A stretch of 64,000 bases of DNA from Sulfuriroseicoccus oceanibius (GCF_010681825.2 NZ_CP066776.1:3224001-3288000), one strand, 5' to 3'; positions 52,026 through 58,575 are shown, counted from the first letter of the stretch. A program made the numbers and translations. Notes: generated from the letters alone by a model not told the origin.

Positions 52026-52040
52026 ATTATAGCCCAGAAT
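52026..52040. other. left attachment repeat (attL candidate)
   Basis: ATTATAGCCCAGAAT, 14/15 identical to 58561-58575. On the minus strand it reads ATTCTGGGCTATAAT, with TATAAT positioned as a possible -10 box for the gene at 51415-51969. Confidence 0.8.
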
Positions 52041-52325
52041 AACACAAGACAGCACAACCGATTCAATTATAGCGACTTACGCAATTTTGAATTTGGCTGT
52101 ACCCCTCAATGTAGCCACTTTTCGGGAAAAATCGCTCAAAGCGGCACATCTGAGCACATCGCGCGGGCGGCAATGTAACCGTCGCGGAAGGATCCGCACC
52201 CGATTTTTTTTCACGCCCCTGGGGGCAAGGAATCTCTTGCGCCTGCGCATGTCCTCAGGTCGCGCCCCCTCTCGGTAAAAAAATGCGAGTTGGAAAATTG
52301 AAACTGCGCCCATTCCAGCGGCGTG

Positions 52326-52847
52326 TCATTCCTCCACGCTCGCGCGGACTACTGCCCTTATGCCCTCCACGTAATCCCGCAAGACTTCGGCCTGTTCATC
52401 GTCAAGCGCCCCGATAGCGTGCTCAGTGCGTTGGTGGATTTGAGTAGGGGCATACGCTCCGTCGATCCGGTTAAGCTCCGCCATGGCTCGCAATGGATCC
52501 ACCTTCTTTACGCGGCAGCGCTGCGTCTCCCCGTTCGTCGTCTCGGTGGTCATCTCCGTTACCAGGTCGCTGTCGTCGCCTAACTCCGCCAAGGGCGTGA
52601 GAATCGCGCGTGTGAGCCATTTCTTGCGCTCGTGCAGCGTCATCACGGCGTCTGAGTCGGCTTGAGCGTTCAACGCTTCCAGATGGCTTAGAACGTGGGG
52701 AATCCTACGCATCCGCGCGGCGTTGCGAGTCGCTGCCACCTTACTAGCACCATAGGCGATTTCATAAGCGGCAATGTCAGAATGACCGGCGGCGACTAGT
52801 CTGCACCAATGGGATTGCTTGGCGTTTGGGCGTGGTGGCTGTGGCAT
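52326..52847 (-). CDS. phage terminase small subunit-like protein (TerS-like)
   Basis: 173 residues from the ATG at 52847 (MPQPPRPNAKQSHWCRLVAAG); the frame upstream to 52976 is not supported. The N-terminal half has the small-terminase HTH pattern (HWCRLVAAGHSDIAAYEIAYGASKVAATRNAARMRRIPHV in register with QxxFxxxYxxxxNAxxAAxxAGYS...A...A..L...P.V), then a charged helix (LHERKKWLTRAI) and KVDPLRAMAELNRIDGAYAP, close to the DPLKAIxELNKMxG ending seen in phage TerS. TerS selects DNA for packaging; a lone TerS without TerL is a hallmark of satellites that redirect a helper's packaging motor. Last gene of the element. Confidence 0.7.
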   Translation of the reverse strand: MPQPPRPNAKQSHWCRLVAAGHSDIAAYEIAYGASKVAATRNAARMRRIPHVLSHLEALNAQADSDAVMTLHERKKWLTRAILTPLAELGDDSDLVTEMTTETTNGETQRCRVKKVDPLRAMAELNRIDGAYAPTQIHQRTEHAIGALDDEQAEVLRDYVEGIRAVVRASVEE

Positions 52848-52997
52848 GATCGGGAGGGGATAGAGAAAACCCCTCACCCCCAAGAAATGAGAGCGAGGGG
52901 TGGCGGCTAACGTCGCGAGGGACAAACCTGATCCCCAGCAACACAACGAGAATAGCAAGCCTGGGGAGCAGGTCACTGCCTGCCCTTGGGCCAGTTG

Positions 52998-53327
52998 TTA
53001 GCCCCAGTTGTAGGTCACAATCGCGGTGTGCTTCTCCTCGCGCCACACCGTGATCCAGCGGCATTTTGCGAGCGGGAGAATCTCGACAATATGATTATTC
53101 ACATCCATATGCACGCCTACCTCAGCGAGCGCTGTCCCCACTGCTTCGGCGGTGGCCTTCATTACTCCAAAAGGCGACTTCATCAGGTAGCCGTCTGCGT
53201 CGTGTGCAATCGTTACCGATTTGGCGGAGGGTGAAAGCATCTCCACGAATTTGACCTTCTCCATGCCCTCGATCTGAAACGACGGGAAATAAGCCTCAAT
53301 GCCCATGTATGGTTGTTGGTTGTTCAT
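52998..53327 (-). CDS. hypothetical protein of the integrated element
   Basis: 109 residues starting MNNQQPYMGIEAYFPSFQI. No recognised domain; a mixed alpha/beta look with WITVWREEKHTAIVTYNWG at the end. It lies 150 bp upstream of the terS-like gene; the gap contains a hairpin ACCCCTC ... GAGGGGT (about 52871-52902), a possible weak terminator or attenuator. Function unknown. Confidence 0.6.
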   Translation of the reverse strand: MNNQQPYMGIEAYFPSFQIEGMEKVKFVEMLSPSAKSVTIAHDADGYLMKSPFGVMKATAEAVGTALAEVGVHMDVNNHIVEILPLAKCRWITVWREEKHTAIVTYNWG

Positions 53328-53376
53328 CCGGCGAAGTTATCCGCCCGCGTAATTCTATGCCAGCGCTTGGCGTGGG

Positions 53377-53547
53377 TCATGGATCCGGGCGACTCTTCTT
53401 CAATATCACCACATCTACGGATGCCAGCGACTCCAGCTCATAGTCCGCATCACGTCCACTCACACCGATAGCAAGCAACCGCTTTTTGGCTGTGCGGCGG
53501 CTTATTCTGCCGGTGGTATATCTCTCTATGATTTCGTCTCGTGTCAT
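53377..53547 (-). CDS. small hypothetical protein (56 aa) of the integrated element
   Basis: A short frame not longer than 56 codons, starting MTRDEIIERYTTGRISRRTAK at 53547, 26 bp after the primase stop. The sequence is basic with a helix-turn-helix-like first half (RDEIIERYTTGRISRRTAKKRLLAIG) resembling a small DNA-binding or SHOCT-like module, but I cannot assign it. Support is codon pattern and tight spacing in a compact same-strand module. Confidence 0.5.
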   Translation of the reverse strand: MTRDEIIERYTTGRISRRTAKKRLLAIGVSGRDADYELESLASVDVVILKKSRPDP

Positions 53548-53572
53548 GTCCCGCGCCTGTCTCGCCGTCGCA

Positions 53573-54559
53573 TCATAACGCTACGTCGGCGGCATAGTCG
53601 AGCCAGAGCAACTGTGATCGGTTGCCGGTCTTCTCGTGCCGATGTCCTGGTAGTCTGCACGGGTGCTCAGGATGACCGACTAGCCCGGCGTCGATGCCTA
53701 GCTGCGGAGCGATTGAGCGAAGATCGGCAACGGCTTGCGGCGGCGGAGCATGAAACCACGCGTGCAAGCTCTTCGATCCGGTAAAGACAATCGCGGCCAG
53801 TCTCCAATGAAGGTCTTCGCGCATCCATCGGATGATTGCGGCGGAGTCTGCTAGATGTGCTCGAAGTTCGTCGGGGTTGGTTGGCGCGGTTCCGTCAAAT
53901 CCGTCGAAGTCGAGCACGATATAGGGCGAAGCTTCTACGTTGTCCCGCGTGCGGCTTGTTGTGCCTTCCTTCCACGTTGCCGGGGTGGTCATGGATCCGC
54001 AACGATGCGCGGTTGAATGGTGGCCGGTGGTCTTCTGCCATCGGGCGGCGTGCGCGGTTCCTGATTCGTGAACTTCTCCAGTCCACAGCAACGCATCCGG
54101 CGGGAATAACGCGGAAAGCATTGCGCGGTCGGGGAACTTCTTCAGCATTGGCCGGTCGAGCCTCACGGGGCTATCTGCCAGGATTTCCTCGCTTGTCCAT
54201 CGGTGGCGATCAATGAGCGGCCTGCGGTATTCCTGCGCGGCCTTGGCGCGTGCTTTCTGCTCGGCCTCCTGTCGTTGTCGCTGCTCTTGTTCCCTCTGCC
54301 AGCGGCGTTTCTCGTCAGGGTCGGGCTTCCAGTCCGATTCCCTACCGGCTAGAGCGTAGATGGTCTTGGTATCGCAAGACGCTCTGCAATGGTAGATGCC
54401 GCTTTCGAAGATCACTAGATTATCCTGCGCGGTGTCGCGGCCTTCAGCGTGGCACGCGGGGCATTGCGCTTCGTGCTGTCCAGCTACGGGGCGAAGCGCC
54501 ACAAGTCGAGCGGGATCAAGGGCGCATGTCTCGGGGAAGATATGGGGGGCTGTTTCCAT
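53573..54559 (-). CDS. primase of the archaeo-eukaryotic (AEP/prim-pol) type with zinc-binding N-terminus
   Basis: About 328 residues from the ATG at 54559 (METAPHIFPETCALD). Near the start is a zinc site CPACHAEG ... YHCRASC. A charged, Gln/Arg-rich linker follows, then the AEP core: VLDFDGFDG (metal Asp pair), SKSLHAWFH (the sxH motif) and HPCRLPGHRHEKTG (RLPG). Together these identify a satellite- or plasmid-type primase. The frame is open to 54787, across the repeat cluster and the repA 3' end, so an upstream non-ATG start cannot be excluded. Next to a RepA-like helicase, it forms a replication module. Confidence 0.82.
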   Translation of the reverse strand: METAPHIFPETCALDPARLVALRPVAGQHEAQCPACHAEGRDTAQDNLVIFESGIYHCRASCDTKTIYALAGRESDWKPDPDEKRRWQREQEQRQRQEAEQKARAKAAQEYRRPLIDRHRWTSEEILADSPVRLDRPMLKKFPDRAMLSALFPPDALLWTGEVHESGTAHAARWQKTTGHHSTAHRCGSMTTPATWKEGTTSRTRDNVEASPYIVLDFDGFDGTAPTNPDELRAHLADSAAIIRWMREDLHWRLAAIVFTGSKSLHAWFHAPPPQAVADLRSIAPQLGIDAGLVGHPEHPCRLPGHRHEKTGNRSQLLWLDYAADVAL

Positions 54560-54699
54560 GATTTCAATGGGTGGTTTCCGTGTCCGTTTCTTGGAAACGT
54601 CCGGTTTTACAAGGGGCGCGGGGTGTCTGTTTCCAGTGGTTTCCAATTTCGTTTCCACTCGTTTCCCGTTTCCCCGCCTTAGGGGAGGAAACTGGAAAC
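54552..54699. repeat. iteron-like cluster of GTTTCC (ten copies), candidate replication origin
   Basis: GTTTCC occurs on the plus strand at 54552, 54574, 54629, 54639, 54651, 54661 and 54668, and as GGAAAC at 54593, 54687 and 54694: ten copies in 148 bp, five of them spaced 7-12 bp apart. The cluster fills the gap between the helicase stop (54709) and the primase start (54559), a natural place for an origin. Confidence 0.6.
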
Positions 54700-54708
54700 G
54701 GATGGGGG

Positions 54709-55776
54709 TTAAGCGGGGAGATAGCGCCCGTTGTCGATTCTGATCTTCTTGTCCGCCTGCGCCTTTTTCGCCCATTTGGAGATGCACCCTTTGGTCTTTC
54801 CTAGGTCGGTTGCGATTTCGGATGCCGATGTGTAACCACCCAAAACCAAGTCGATAAACTGATCGTAGAAGTCGATTGTGGCAGTGGTGGATTCGATGCC
54901 GTCGGGCGTTTCAATCAGAGTCCAGAGAAGCGGCGGAACCTCTGAAGGCGAAACGTTCCTGCACTTGGTGAACCTCGTCTTGAATTGAAGGGCGGCGCTG
55001 TCGTCCTCGTTGGCTTCCTCTAGCGAGATGATCCAATGTGCAGCGTCTTCCCGTTTGCTTGTGCCGCGAATGTTCCCATTGCGCCCGGCATGGCATACCA
55101 GAATCACGGCAATCCCCCGGCGTCGCATGTCGAGAATCCACGGACTAACCTGCTCCCATGAATCCGCCTTGTCTTCCTGGAGTCCGTGAAATGCGGTGGA
55201 GAGGTTGTCGAGAATCAGGGTGCTAATTCCCTGCTCTCGGCAATAGGCGGCAATGGCTGCTTGATAGGCATCATCGGCTAGGTTCAGGGTCAACTCGTCG
55301 CCCGATTCACTGAAAAGCCGTTCATGGCTCAACAAGCTGAAGTAGTCGCTGTCTATGCGGAGCGAGTCGCATCGGGTCTTCACTAGGTCGTGAATGTTCA
55401 TCTCACTGTCGAGATAGAGAACCTTGTGCCGTTGCTGCGCCTGCCAATGGCTACCGATCATAGTGCCTTCAGAAAGCGCCTTGCCGATCAATAGCGACAG
55501 CCAGCTCTTACCGGCTCCCCTTGGCGCGTAGATGATCCCGTAGTCGCCTCTCTTGTAGAACGGGGAAAGCATTACCGGGCGTTCCGGGATTGCTAGGCCT
55601 CTAAAGGTATCGGCTGAAACGACAGCGCGATCGAGTGAGCGGAGCACTCGGTCGAATAGCTCCGGCGACTTAGTTCTCTCCCGTTCCGGGTGATTCCCAG
55701 CACCCTCTGCGAGTGCGGCGACGGTTGGGCTTTTCGGCTCTAGCTGCGCGACGGTTTGATAGTCGTACTTCTTCAT
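54709..55776 (-). CDS. RepA-like AAA ATPase / replicative helicase
   Basis: 355 residues from the ATG at 55776 (MKKYDYQTVAQLEP); the frame continues to 55839. RecA-fold ATPase: Walker A YAPRGAGKSWLS (about 83-94), KVLYLDSEM, Walker B STLILDNLS (about 180), and VILVCHAGRNGNIRGTSKRED, the sensor region typical of the RepA/AAA_25 helicases of plasmids and satellites. The C-terminal 60 residues form a winged-helix-like domain (GGYTSASEIATDLGKTKGCISKWAKKAQ). Probably unwinds the origin for the adjacent primase. Confidence 0.85.
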   Translation of the reverse strand: MKKYDYQTVAQLEPKSPTVAALAEGAGNHPERERTKSPELFDRVLRSLDRAVVSADTFRGLAIPERPVMLSPFYKRGDYGIIYAPRGAGKSWLSLLIGKALSEGTMIGSHWQAQQRHKVLYLDSEMNIHDLVKTRCDSLRIDSDYFSLLSHERLFSESGDELTLNLADDAYQAAIAAYCREQGISTLILDNLSTAFHGLQEDKADSWEQVSPWILDMRRRGIAVILVCHAGRNGNIRGTSKREDAAHWIISLEEANEDDSAALQFKTRFTKCRNVSPSEVPPLLWTLIETPDGIESTTATIDFYDQFIDLVLGGYTSASEIATDLGKTKGCISKWAKKAQADKKIRIDNGRYLPA

Positions 55777-55852
55777 AGAAGGCAATGTTTTTTGCCCTTG
55801 TCTCTCGGGTCGCATCTGCCTAGAGTCGAAGCGTCTCAAAACTTCTTTCTAG

Positions 55853-55899
55853 GCTCGTTGCCCTTGCGAACGCAACCCCGGGGGCAGCGGGCTTTTTTT
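55853..55899 (+). terminator. plus-strand intrinsic terminator inside the minus-strand module
   Basis: GCTCGTTGCCC (55853-55863) pairs with GGGCAGCGGGC (55882-55892) through 11 pairs including two G-T, then seven T. No plus-strand gene precedes it, so if real it ends an antisense or regulatory transcript crossing the repA 5' region. Confidence 0.65.
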
Positions 55900-55934
55900 G
55901 TGCTTGGGTGGTTTTCCGTTGGTGCGGGCGGCTG

Positions 55935-56162
55935 CTACTTCCCTCCCTCTGCCGGTACGCGGGCAGCGTCCAGCCATGCGTCTAGCGATTCGACTAGAAC
56001 AAGGATCTTGCCAACCTGCTTGTCCCCCGCTGCGGCAATCTTCGTGATCTCAACTTTACCGGCGGCAACCGCTGCTTTGATCGTGGATCGGCTCAGCCCC
56101 GAATAAGCGGCGGCGGTAGTCAGGTCGAACCATTTCGGCTTGATGTGTGTTGGTTTACTCAT
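55935..56162 (-). CDS. AlpA/excisionase-like helix-turn-helix protein
   Basis: 75 residues with the MerR-like HTH_17 pattern: WFDLTTAAAYSGLSRSTIKAAVAAGKVEITKI followed by LVLVESLDAWLDA. Such proteins act as excisionases or transcriptional activators; in Gram-negative phage satellites AlpA activates the island. It sits between the unknown gene at 56363 and the repA-like gene, with a repeat-rich 200-bp region upstream. Confidence 0.8.
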   Translation of the reverse strand: MSKPTHIKPKWFDLTTAAAYSGLSRSTIKAAVAAGKVEITKIAAAGDKQVGKILVLVESLDAWLDAARVPAEGGK

Positions 56163-56231
56163 GCTTCCAGATAAACGGCGAAATGATTAAACCGTCAAGG
56201 CGTAAGCGACACAACACCAACGAGTTACAAC

Positions 56232-56320
56232 GGGCAATAGTGGGTAGTTTTGGGCAATAAAGGGCGAAATAGGGGAACCTTTCGGGCAAAAAAACGCCCA
56301 AGCGGAACCTTTCGGAACCA
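56232..56320. repeat. direct repeats upstream of the AlpA-like gene
   Basis: GGGCAATA at 56232-56239 and 56252-56259 (20-bp phase), with a GGGCGAAAT variant at 56262, then GGAACCTTTCGG at 56274-56285 and 56304-56315. They lie within the 200 bp between the AlpA-like start (56162) and the stop of the gene at 56363. Possible binding sites for a regulator or an origin element. Confidence 0.6.
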
Positions 56321-56362
56321 CAAGGGCGACTTTCGGCAGCTTTTCGCGCTGAAAGGGGCGAC

Positions 56363-57052
56363 TTAATTTTTCTCCGATATTTCTTCCAGATCGGGCTTGC
56401 CCGTGGCCTCGATTCGCCACAATCGCGCCTTTGGCAGCATGACGTCCGCGTCATCTAACCTCAGACCATCTTGCCGCATTGATTCATAGCGCTGCGTCAC
56501 TTCCTCCAAGGTTACAGGGCGTAGATCCAGTGCCCCCGTCCATCTGAAACATTCCTCTGTATAGTGCCACAACCACCCCTTCACCCAAGGCTCACGCGCA
56601 TCCAGGTCTGCCAGTCCGAACGCGGCCTTCGTGAAGGCGTCAAACGTGACATAAGGCACACCATCAACTTCGTGCACGTCTTTAGAATCCCATCCCTCAA
56701 ACGAGGGTAAGTTTGCAGGCCTACCATTCCCCGACGACACCCTGCACGCATCCATTACTCTCTTGTTGCGCTCACGCTCTTCGCGAAGCTCGGCCTCATT
56801 GCTTTGTATCGCGTCACGCATCCGTTCCAAGGTGCTGCCTGCATCCCGCCAGATTTTCAACGCTATAGTCGTCCGTAGAAAATCTTCCTTAAACTTGCCG
56901 TATAGACTGGCTTCGAGTTGCGCCAGTTGGAACTGATCGGGGAGTTGATCGACACTGTGAAAGCCAAGCACCCCGTGGCTGGGATGCCCTTCGAGGTAAG
57001 GCCGTTTCTCGCTTTCAATTTCTGAGGGGATGCCTGATTGCCGCTTATCCAT
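56363..57052 (-). CDS. hypothetical protein of the integrated element
   Basis: 229 residues (MDKRQSGIPSEIESEKRPYLEG). A coiled-coil-prone stretch (ERMRDAIQSNEAELREERERNKRVMDA, written here only in part: ELREERERNKRV) around residues 75-105 is followed by a globular part with several Trp (EPWVKGWLWHYTEECFRW). No domain recognised. Lies 22 bp after the 67-residue gene and is part of the int-proximal cluster. Confidence 0.65.
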   Translation of the reverse strand: MDKRQSGIPSEIESEKRPYLEGHPSHGVLGFHSVDQLPDQFQLAQLEASLYGKFKEDFLRTTIALKIWRDAGSTLERMRDAIQSNEAELREERERNKRVMDACRVSSGNGRPANLPSFEGWDSKDVHEVDGVPYVTFDAFTKAAFGLADLDAREPWVKGWLWHYTEECFRWTGALDLRPVTLEEVTQRYESMRQDGLRLDDADVMLPKARLWRIEATGKPDLEEISEKN

Positions 57053-57074
57053 AAAGCCAAGAATTGATTCACGT

Positions 57075-57278
57075 TTACTTGCCAGCGATGGCGGCGGCGT
57101 GTTCCAGCGCTTCGGCCTTCAGTTGCTCGCCAGCTGCGCGTCCGGCGGCTTTCGCGCGTGCGGCCAGGTTGGCGGCTGTGTCGTTGTCGATCTCGGTTGT
57201 GATCCGGCGGAGTGTGTCGGCCTCGACTCCGGTATACTTGGCGACTCGGGCAATCTGGTCTTCGGTTGGTTGGTTCAT
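57075..57278 (-). CDS. small hypothetical protein (67 aa) of the integrated element
   Basis: 67 residues, MNQPTEDQIARVAKYTGVEAD ... ALEHAAAIAGK; helical and Ala-rich, acidic at the start. Lies 39 bp downstream of int and 22 bp upstream of the 229-residue gene, same strand. No recognised domain; perhaps a small regulator. Confidence 0.55.
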   Translation of the reverse strand: MNQPTEDQIARVAKYTGVEADTLRRITTEIDNDTAANLAARAKAAGRAAGEQLKAEALEHAAAIAGK

Positions 57279-57317
57279 ATCTCGTTGGTGGTTTGGTTGG
57301 TAGGGTTTGGGAAAGGA

Positions 57318-58472
57318 TTAGATTTCGAGGGTGGCGATGGCTTGTTTGAGCTGTTCAAGTTCGGTGCGGTTATAAAGTTGGTGAATCGCTTCCGATGAAT
57401 GACCGGCAAGCTGCATCCGGCCTTCTGCGGCAACTCCACCAGCGGCGAGCCATGAAACAAACGTAACCCTCAAGCTGTGGAATGTCCGCTTTGCCGTGGC
57501 GCGGTTGGGCAGTGTGATCTCTCTGGGAACGCCCGCTTGTTTCATCAGGCTATTGAAGTTGCGTGATGTCTGCTCGGGCTTTTTGGATCCCGCTTCGGGG
57601 AATAACTCCCCTGCCTTATCGGCAACCCACGCTTTGACCGGCGCGGCCAATGGAATCGCTACCGTCTTACCAAACCGGCGCGTCTTCTTCGGCGTCACGA
57701 TTAGAACGCCTTCGCCGTCGATCATGTCAGAATGAAGTGCGATCACATCCGCCAAGCGTAGTCCGGTGTACGTCGCGAAAAGCACAATCCCGCGCATCTC
57801 GTCATCAGCCAGCGCAAGAATCCGCTCGATCTCGTCACGGGTGAACGCCCCCTTGATCGACTTGTCGGTCATTGGCAACGATTTAACCAGCTTGGCAGGG
57901 TTGCGGCTACAGATGCCGCGTGCGTGCGCGTCCGTCATCACGCGGCGGAGCTCCGACAAACTTTGATTGATTGATCCTCGCTTTTTGCCGTCATCCAGCA
58001 TCTTGTCCAGCGCTGCGGAAATATGCGCCTCGGTAAGTTTGCCGATATGCGCATCTGCCACCTTGTCGCCAAGTGCGGCCAGCATCCGGAAACGGTTGCC
58101 GTTACTCGCTGAAATCGTGCCTCCATTCCATCGCTTCGCTTGTGCGTCGTGCCATGCCTCCCAGTGTTCGCGCAATGTGACCTGGTTGTCGTCAGGGTTG
58201 GCGACGGCATAGGCCTCTGCCAGCAACGACTCCAGAACGGGCAGCGTTAGCTTGCCAGCGTCCGCTGCGAATAGCCCCCGCTTCAGGATCCCAACGAAAG
58301 CCCGCTTCATCCCGTCGCCATCTGTCGCCTTCCGGTCTAAGGCTTCGAGTTCGATTGCCTTCTTCCGCGCTTCCGTCTTGGAAGACTCGCCAGTGGTGCG
58401 GGTGATCCGCTTACCATCCGCACCCGTCCAACGTGCGTACCAAATGTTTCCTCGCTTTTTCAATCCGGCCAT
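57318..58472 (-). CDS. int: tyrosine recombinase / integrase
   Basis: 384 residues. N-terminal arm-type domain (KKRGNIWYARWTGADGKRITRT), SAM-like core-binding domain (about 95-195), catalytic domain with Arg239 (ATYTGLRLADV), His332 and Arg335 (FHSLRVTF), His358 (LAGHSS) and the nucleophile Tyr367 (IHQLYNRT). A full set of catalytic residues, so probably active. First gene of the element, its start 89 bp from the right attachment repeat, the usual position for a satellite or island integrase. Confidence 0.96.
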   Translation of the reverse strand: MAGLKKRGNIWYARWTGADGKRITRTTGESSKTEARKKAIELEALDRKATDGDGMKRAFVGILKRGLFAADAGKLTLPVLESLLAEAYAVANPDDNQVTLREHWEAWHDAQAKRWNGGTISASNGNRFRMLAALGDKVADAHIGKLTEAHISAALDKMLDDGKKRGSINQSLSELRRVMTDAHARGICSRNPAKLVKSLPMTDKSIKGAFTRDEIERILALADDEMRGIVLFATYTGLRLADVIALHSDMIDGEGVLIVTPKKTRRFGKTVAIPLAAPVKAWVADKAGELFPEAGSKKPEQTSRNFNSLMKQAGVPREITLPNRATAKRTFHSLRVTFVSWLAAGGVAAEGRMQLAGHSSEAIHQLYNRTELEQLKQAIATLEI

Positions 58473-58484
58473 GTCCCCGAATCT

Positions 58485-58524
58485 GTACCCACTTTAACGG
58501 GATAAAACAAGATTTTCTGGGTAC
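58485..58524. promoter_or_regulatory. inverted repeat in the int promoter region
   Basis: GTACCCA (58485-58491) and TGGGTAC (58518-58524) form a perfect inverted repeat with a 26-nt spacer, directly upstream of int and 37 bp from the attachment repeat. Candidate operator or integrase arm site. Confidence 0.5.
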
Positions 58525-58560
58525 AGTGACCGCTGAGGCCTTATTTTATAAGGGTCTGAG

Positions 58561-58575
58561 ATTATAGCCCAAAAT
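58561..58575. other. right attachment repeat (attR candidate)
   Basis: ATTATAGCCCAAAAT, one mismatch to 52026-52040. It lies 46 bp past the stop of the large secreted protein gene at 58622, so integration disturbed an intergenic region, not a coding sequence. Confidence 0.8.

Follow-up and report, generated by a model that had tools for sequence, protein, structure and literature searches.

The locus considered here raises the question of whether a short block of phage-like genes in the chromosome of Sulfuriroseicoccus oceanibius is a satellite that uses the particles of a helper phage. The genome is a single contig of 3,496,488 bp from a member of the bacterial order that includes Akkermansia. 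The window, which is the whole 64-kb stretch of DNA that was analysed, corresponds to G000:C1:3224001-3288000. The block at 52026-58575 of the window is about 6.55 kb long and consists of nine genes in the window gene calls, all on the minus strand. Their order from the integrase end is integrase, orfY, orfX, AlpA-like HTH protein, RepA-like helicase, primase, two small genes and the small terminase subunit (TerS). This content, order and one-strand orientation had been claimed in the initial annotation, and the gene calls together with the Pfam and PHROG matches agree with it. The features are listed below.

52026-52040, plus strand: att repeat, left copy ATTATAGCCCAGAAT; identical to the right copy at 14/15 positions, genome-unique pattern
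52097-52104, plus strand: CTGTACCC, candidate integrase arm-type site at the left end, near the att repeat
52326-52847, minus strand: terS, small terminase subunit, 173 aa (open frame to 52976); PHROG, PDB profile and AlphaFold/fold matches
52998-53327, minus strand: small gene, 109 aa, with no Pfam, PADLOC or PHROG match (E <0.1)
53377-53547, minus strand: small gene, 56 aa; homologue (2e-9) in phage contig L189
53573-54559, minus strand: AEP/PrimPol-type primase with zinc-binding motif, 328 aa; PrimPol profile match and motifs
54552-54705, no strand assigned: GTTTCC/GGAAAC iteron cluster with palindrome, probable replication origin by copy number and conservation
54709-55776, minus strand: RepA-like helicase, 355 aa (open frame to 55839); AAA_25, 3e-18, and RepA profile match
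55935-56162, minus strand: AlpA-like HTH regulator/excisionase, 75 aa; HTH_17, 6e-6, and phrog_66, 4e-5
56363-57052, minus strand: orfX, 229 aa, no family match
57075-57278, minus strand: orfY, 67 aa; homologue in a second island of the genome
57318-58472, minus strand: tyrosine integrase, 384 aa; Phage_integrase, 1e-12, and phrog_1, 2e-54
58483-58526, no strand assigned: inverted CTGTACCC pair, candidate integrase arm-type sites at the right end, near the att repeat
58561-58575, plus strand: att repeat, right copy ATTATAGCCCAAAAT; 14/15 match to the left copy, genome-unique pattern

We consider it likely that this block is a satellite resembling the phage-inducible chromosomal islands (PICIs), which would excise, replicate itself and use its own TerS to redirect the large terminase (TerL) of a helper. 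The same inference had been drawn at the outset, and it is supported by the identity of TerS, the att repeats and the recurrence of the gene order in relatives.

Boundaries and integration site

The initial annotation described 15-bp direct repeats. A flanking repeat pair is indeed present, but the two copies are not fully identical; they agree at 14 of 15 positions and the exact part is 11 bp. The pattern ATTATAGCCCARAAT with at most one mismatch occurs in the whole 3,496,488-bp genome only at the two att positions, and with at most two mismatches it occurs only there in the 64-kb window (0.04 expected). Because the pattern is unique to these two places, the pair cannot be attributed to chance. 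The motif CTGTACCC is found three times in the window (0.62 expected), at 52097, 58483 and 58519, and every copy lies within 80 bp of an att repeat, a placement that would suit arm sites of the integrase.

If the island is removed in silico, the two flanking genes lie on one strand with about 117 bp between them, which is an ordinary gap. The left neighbour has no Pfam match and the right neighbour is a protein of 1130 aa; neither of them is fis. The motif TATAAT is present in the att core on the minus strand (52026-52040 and 58561-58575), and the integrase may thus be directed to a promoter region that lies between two genes of one strand. There is also a second 11-bp repeat near the ends, at 52210/58607. 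In the search for an empty site (genus/family), a homologue of the right-hand neighbour was absent from the two relatives examined, and no relative with the island at the same chromosomal site was found.

Among the genes next to the integrase, the AlpA-like protein scores 26.8 bits with HTH_17, just below the cut-off of 27, and its PHROG family is annotated as excisionase and transcriptional regulator. A search of 189 further genomes of the order found no relatives of orfX, and a weak partial match is located elsewhere in the same genome.

The small terminase subunit

The assignment of 52326-52847 to TerS had been made by pattern only, and it is now borne out by PHROG, PDB-profile and fold comparison. 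The protein matches phrog_51 (small terminase) with an E-value of 1e-9 and aligns with 18 other Verrucomicrobiales homologues. A profile of 13 TerS sequences finds the TerS of Pam5 in the PDB with an E-value of 1.5e-8. The AlphaFold model has a mean pLDDT of 84.6. With Foldseek, the top matches of this model among solved structures are the small terminases of SPP1-like phage, and most of the named matches to viral models are terminase small subunits. In the comparison by VIA-align the model is closest to SF6 (Z 8.3, DNA-binding domain), followed by PaP3 and SPP1-like (7.5), NV1 (7.4), a Bacillus phage protein (7.2) and E217 (5.8), Z values that are modest for a small helical protein. Named phage small terminases make up six of the first seven rows, and both the DNA-binding and the oligomerisation parts are covered; the rows below the top TerS matches are generic HTH folds and were left out. 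Both fold searches thus point to a TerS fold and not to another fold. On the sequence profiles and the modelled structure, the last gene of the block is firmly predicted to encode TerS.

In the tree, the window TerS is nearest to the TerS of Akkermansia loci and prophages. No TerS relatives were found in phage records, and single-sequence queries found no close relatives of TerS or of the helicase in viral contigs. The scan of the collection for TerS used a smaller and less divergent TerS alignment as query.

Apart from TerS, no gene of the window island has a significant match to a structural or lytic PHROG, and the capsid, portal and TerL genes that characterize capsid-forming PICIs (cfPICIs) are absent from it in the PHROG scan. 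The initial annotation also envisaged a helper prophage with a matching large terminase elsewhere in the genome. None was found in the genome with profiles of TerL (PHROGs 2 and 9) and portal (PHROG 12); the helper would therefore have to be an external phage or a member of a family missed by these profiles. The genome does contain partial, weak TerL matches in a frame of 399 aa (E 3e-5) and in a frame of 1970 aa (E 3e-4), the latter situated among restriction/defence-like genes, and both were read as other ATPases.

Replication module and probable origin

The helicase at 54709-55776 had been described as RepA-like, and this is supported by its AAA_25 match and by a profile of 11 homologues, which matches RepA 1g8y, weakly, with an E-value of 5e-5. 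A profile of 12 primase homologues matches the PrimPol AEP domain 6zp9 (E 1e-3), and the primase motifs CPACH...C, DFDGFD and S-H are conserved. Compared with its counterpart in the second island of the genome, the window primase shows dN 0.085 and dS 0.52 (dN/dS about 0.16), and from these values it follows that the protein has evolved under purifying selection.

Immediately 3' of the helicase gene there are ten GTTTCC/GGAAAC motifs in 250 bp, compared with 0.32 expected and a maximum of three in 1000 simulations. At least five copies are found at the same place in 14 of 20 relatives. The array includes a palindrome of the approximate form CGTTTCCAGTTTCC-CCTAAGG-GGGAAACGGGAAACG, which occupies the same place in all seven aligned loci. 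This conserved iteron palindrome is probably the replication origin.

Related islands

The strongest support for the satellite reading comes from the comparison with related islands. The order int-alpA-rep-terS, for which the initial annotation proposed a search in other genomes, is found again in further Verrucomicrobiales and once more elsewhere in this chromosome. The second island (G000:C1:2478358-2489022; L124:6359-17023) is 10.7 kb long, is bounded by 32-bp tRNA-Ser repeats and contains an integrase, AlpA, a homologue of orfY at a similar place (8e-24), a D5/DUF5906 helicase, a primase and a lone TerS. Its primase is 74% identical to the window primase over 400 aa and 86% in the conserved part. 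The TerS proteins belong to different families, PHROG 57 in the second island and PHROG 51 in the window. Another stretch of this chromosome, at about 1793400-1843000 of G000:C1 (L123, L126-L128), runs from tRNA-Arg to an integrase and has a distant primase relative; its left part consists, by eye, mostly of restriction and DUF262-like defence genes, and a gene resembling the 56-aa gene was seen by eye in L127.

The two closest helicases are those of L034 (59%) and L035 (52%). In both islands a lone TerS-like gene comes immediately behind the helicase and iterons. Repeats of 29 bp from the tRNA-His end delimit L035, and L034 adjoins tRNA-Lys; a search for the integrase gene of the L034 element did not find it. 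In the helicase tree the window, L034 and L035 group together as a clade with 100/99 support, and the TerS proteins of the three are not mutual nearest relatives in the tree. This indicates that the replication module has been kept and the packaging gene differs.

Further TerS islands were found in the order. In a complete genome, an island of about 12.4 kb (L159) has 64-bp tRNA-Ser repeats, a PHROG 51 TerS and, as cargo, a type IIG restriction enzyme; L160 has 40-bp tRNA-Met repeats with a PHROG 57 TerS. An Akkermansia locus with host genes on either side (L096/L113) contains an integrase, HTH protein, DnaC-like loader and TerS, and its genome has no TerL match; homologues of several genes of this locus occur with different neighbours in L109 (Akkermansia/Akkermansiaceae). 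An Akkermansiaceae island, L115, has two adjacent TerS genes, of PHROGs 1482 and 51, at L115:1675-2765. Capsid and tail genes in sister copies would have spoken against a satellite; among the scanned proteins of related islands, which lie at other sites than the window island, there is no convincing capsid, portal, tail or TerL protein. A satellite reading was dropped for L086/L110 of A. muciniphila, where TerS stands beside an integrase, since the contig also has a TerL at a distance of about 12 kb, and this locus was treated as a prophage.

Most of the wider helicase relatives have no recognised TerS. The replication module is therefore not confined to TerS satellites, and the core module serves other elements as well. 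Many of these relatives contain restriction, toxin-antitoxin or ArdC-like genes, as read by eye. L037, L040, L046 and L049, for example, are elements of the int-HTH-primase-helicase-iteron type without a recognised TerS, and L037 and L040 have tRNA-Lys repeats of 31-37 bp with ArdC-like and toxin-antitoxin genes. In two genomes (G063, G157) several TerS-like genes per genome (L092, L093, L094, L098, L099, L103) stand alone among apparent chromosomal genes, with no integrase or TerL alongside, and are perhaps domesticated or relic.

Proposed mechanism and alternative explanations

On the satellite reading, infection by or induction of a helper phage would raise the level of AlpA. The integrase, together with AlpA/Xis, would then excise the island at its 15-bp att core. 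Opening of the GTTTCC iteron origin would fall to the RepA-like helicase and the start of replication to the AEP primase, leading to a circle or concatemer. The TerS of the element would bind the element DNA and join the TerL of the helper, and the element, rather than the helper, would be packed into helper particles and could be transferred in them. The points that we count against this reading are the non-identical att repeats, the empty site, helper phage and L034 integrase that were looked for and not found, the many wider helicase relatives in which no TerS was recognised, and the TerS-like genes that stand alone in some chromosomes.

The alternative that survives best, although it is improbable, is a prophage remnant, that is, the early arm of a temperate phage (integrase, regulator, replication genes and TerS) that has lost everything from TerL onward and is now immobile. 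TerS is often the last gene before TerL in phages, and a single deletion would yield the observed layout. The affinity of the window TerS to the Akkermansia loci and prophages is also in its favour, as is the phage contig L189 (IMGVR_UViG_3300037882_002570). This contig has portal and head genes, a primase 44% identical to that of the window and the homologue of the 56-aa gene; it could possibly be a gene-sharing partner of the satellites. However, att repeats are still found at both ends of the block, the recognised domains lie in open frames and the primase is under purifying selection. In addition, at least five delimited islands, which differ in TerS family and insertion site, would each have had to undergo the same truncation separately, ending near att. 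The existence of such att-bounded TerS islands makes repeated prophage deletion hard to accept.

Slightly less probable still is a plasmid-like integrative element with a RepA-type helicase, primase and integrase, which would be transferred by another route and in which TerS would be cargo or a DNA-binding regulator. The helicase does match the regulatory protein RepA (1g8y), and the int-HTH-primase-helicase-iteron core is shared by the many relatives described above in which no TerS was recognised. The TerS-like genes that stand alone in some chromosomes also mean that TerS by itself is no proof of packaging. Against this, there is no relaxase family among the Pfam matches of the window-island genes, and unrelated forms of TerS (PHROGs 51 and 57, with the additional PHROG 1482 in L115) recur after the replication module. 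Such recurrence is hard to explain unless packaging is a trait that has been kept. A chance cluster of unrelated phage-derived genes, to which the base composition of the block, not distinct from its surroundings, might be thought to point, is scarcely credible in view of the unique flanking repeats, the single orientation, the gene order common to relatives and the conserved iteron array.

The PICI-like satellite remains the preferred explanation. With somewhat less confidence, we also favour the view that the Verrucomicrobiales (Akkermansiaceae and other families) have their own widespread lineages of TerS satellites. These would be built on the RepA-helicase/AEP-primase/GTTTCC-origin core or on related replication modules, and their TerS would have been swapped repeatedly to match different helpers.

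Comparison with known systems

The known families of phage satellites are listed in a 2024 review (PMC11389934). The initial annotation knew of no satellite of this type in Verrucomicrobiota, and in agreement with this, a search of open literature other than the large 2023 satellite survey, which may already have detected them, found no paper that connects Verrucomicrobiota or Akkermansia with phage satellites or PICIs. Both phage resistance and gene transfer are shaped by phage satellites. If the present reading is true, TerS-type satellites extend to the order of the gut bacterium Akkermansia, and the conserved origin motif and gene order become search tools. One genome with two islands, related primases and two TerS families would then be a natural test of helper switching.

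Plasmid replication of the RSF1010 type uses a RepA helicase, a separate primase and an iteron-type origin. The window island is similar in its RepA-like helicase (a weak match to 1g8y), separate primase and iteron-type putative origin. It differs in being chromosomal and integrase-borne and in having no relaxase match.

Another comparison is provided by the viral contig L176 (IMG/VR), which has an integrase, AlpA-like HTH protein and distant RepA-like helicase (about 32% identity), as in the window island, and behind these the genes for capsid, protease, portal, TerS and TerL. It resembles a cfPICI, as read from known cfPICI gene content. The difference lies in the packaging and head genes: L176 has the major capsid protein, protease, portal, TerS and TerL, and the window island has TerS only. 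L174, L175 and L179 (IMG/VR) are, like L176, viral contigs of about 10-14 kb with an integrase and a distant RepA-like helicase.

The PICMIs of Vibrionaceae adjoin fis, and DUF5906 is among the domains of the PICMI model; the word "terminase" is absent from the main text of that paper (PMC10803314). The window island is similarly very small, with an int-alpA-primase core and no capsid genes, and the second island has a DUF5906 helicase as in the PICMI model. However, the window island is not located beside fis and has its own TerS.

A further comparison is with the PICIs of Gram-negative bacteria. Their plan consists of an integrase at one end, an AlpA-type regulator, a primase with a replication protein and origin, and TerS in some members; PICIs have no structural or lytic genes and use specific att sites, and a size of about 15 kb is stated for those of Gram-positive bacteria (PMC6092414). 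In comparison with this Gram-positive size, the window island has 6.55 kb, the second island 10.7 kb and L159 about 12.4 kb. The window island is unlike the Gram-negative PICIs in its separate RepA-like helicase and AEP primase, its GTTTCC iteron palindrome, its host in the Verrucomicrobiales, an att core outside a tRNA gene and the lack of a demonstrated helper. The likeness is one of architecture and domain families, not of orthology. It includes the integrase with att repeats, the AlpA-type regulator, the replication module with a putative origin and the TerS gene, in an element that likewise has no structural or lytic genes.
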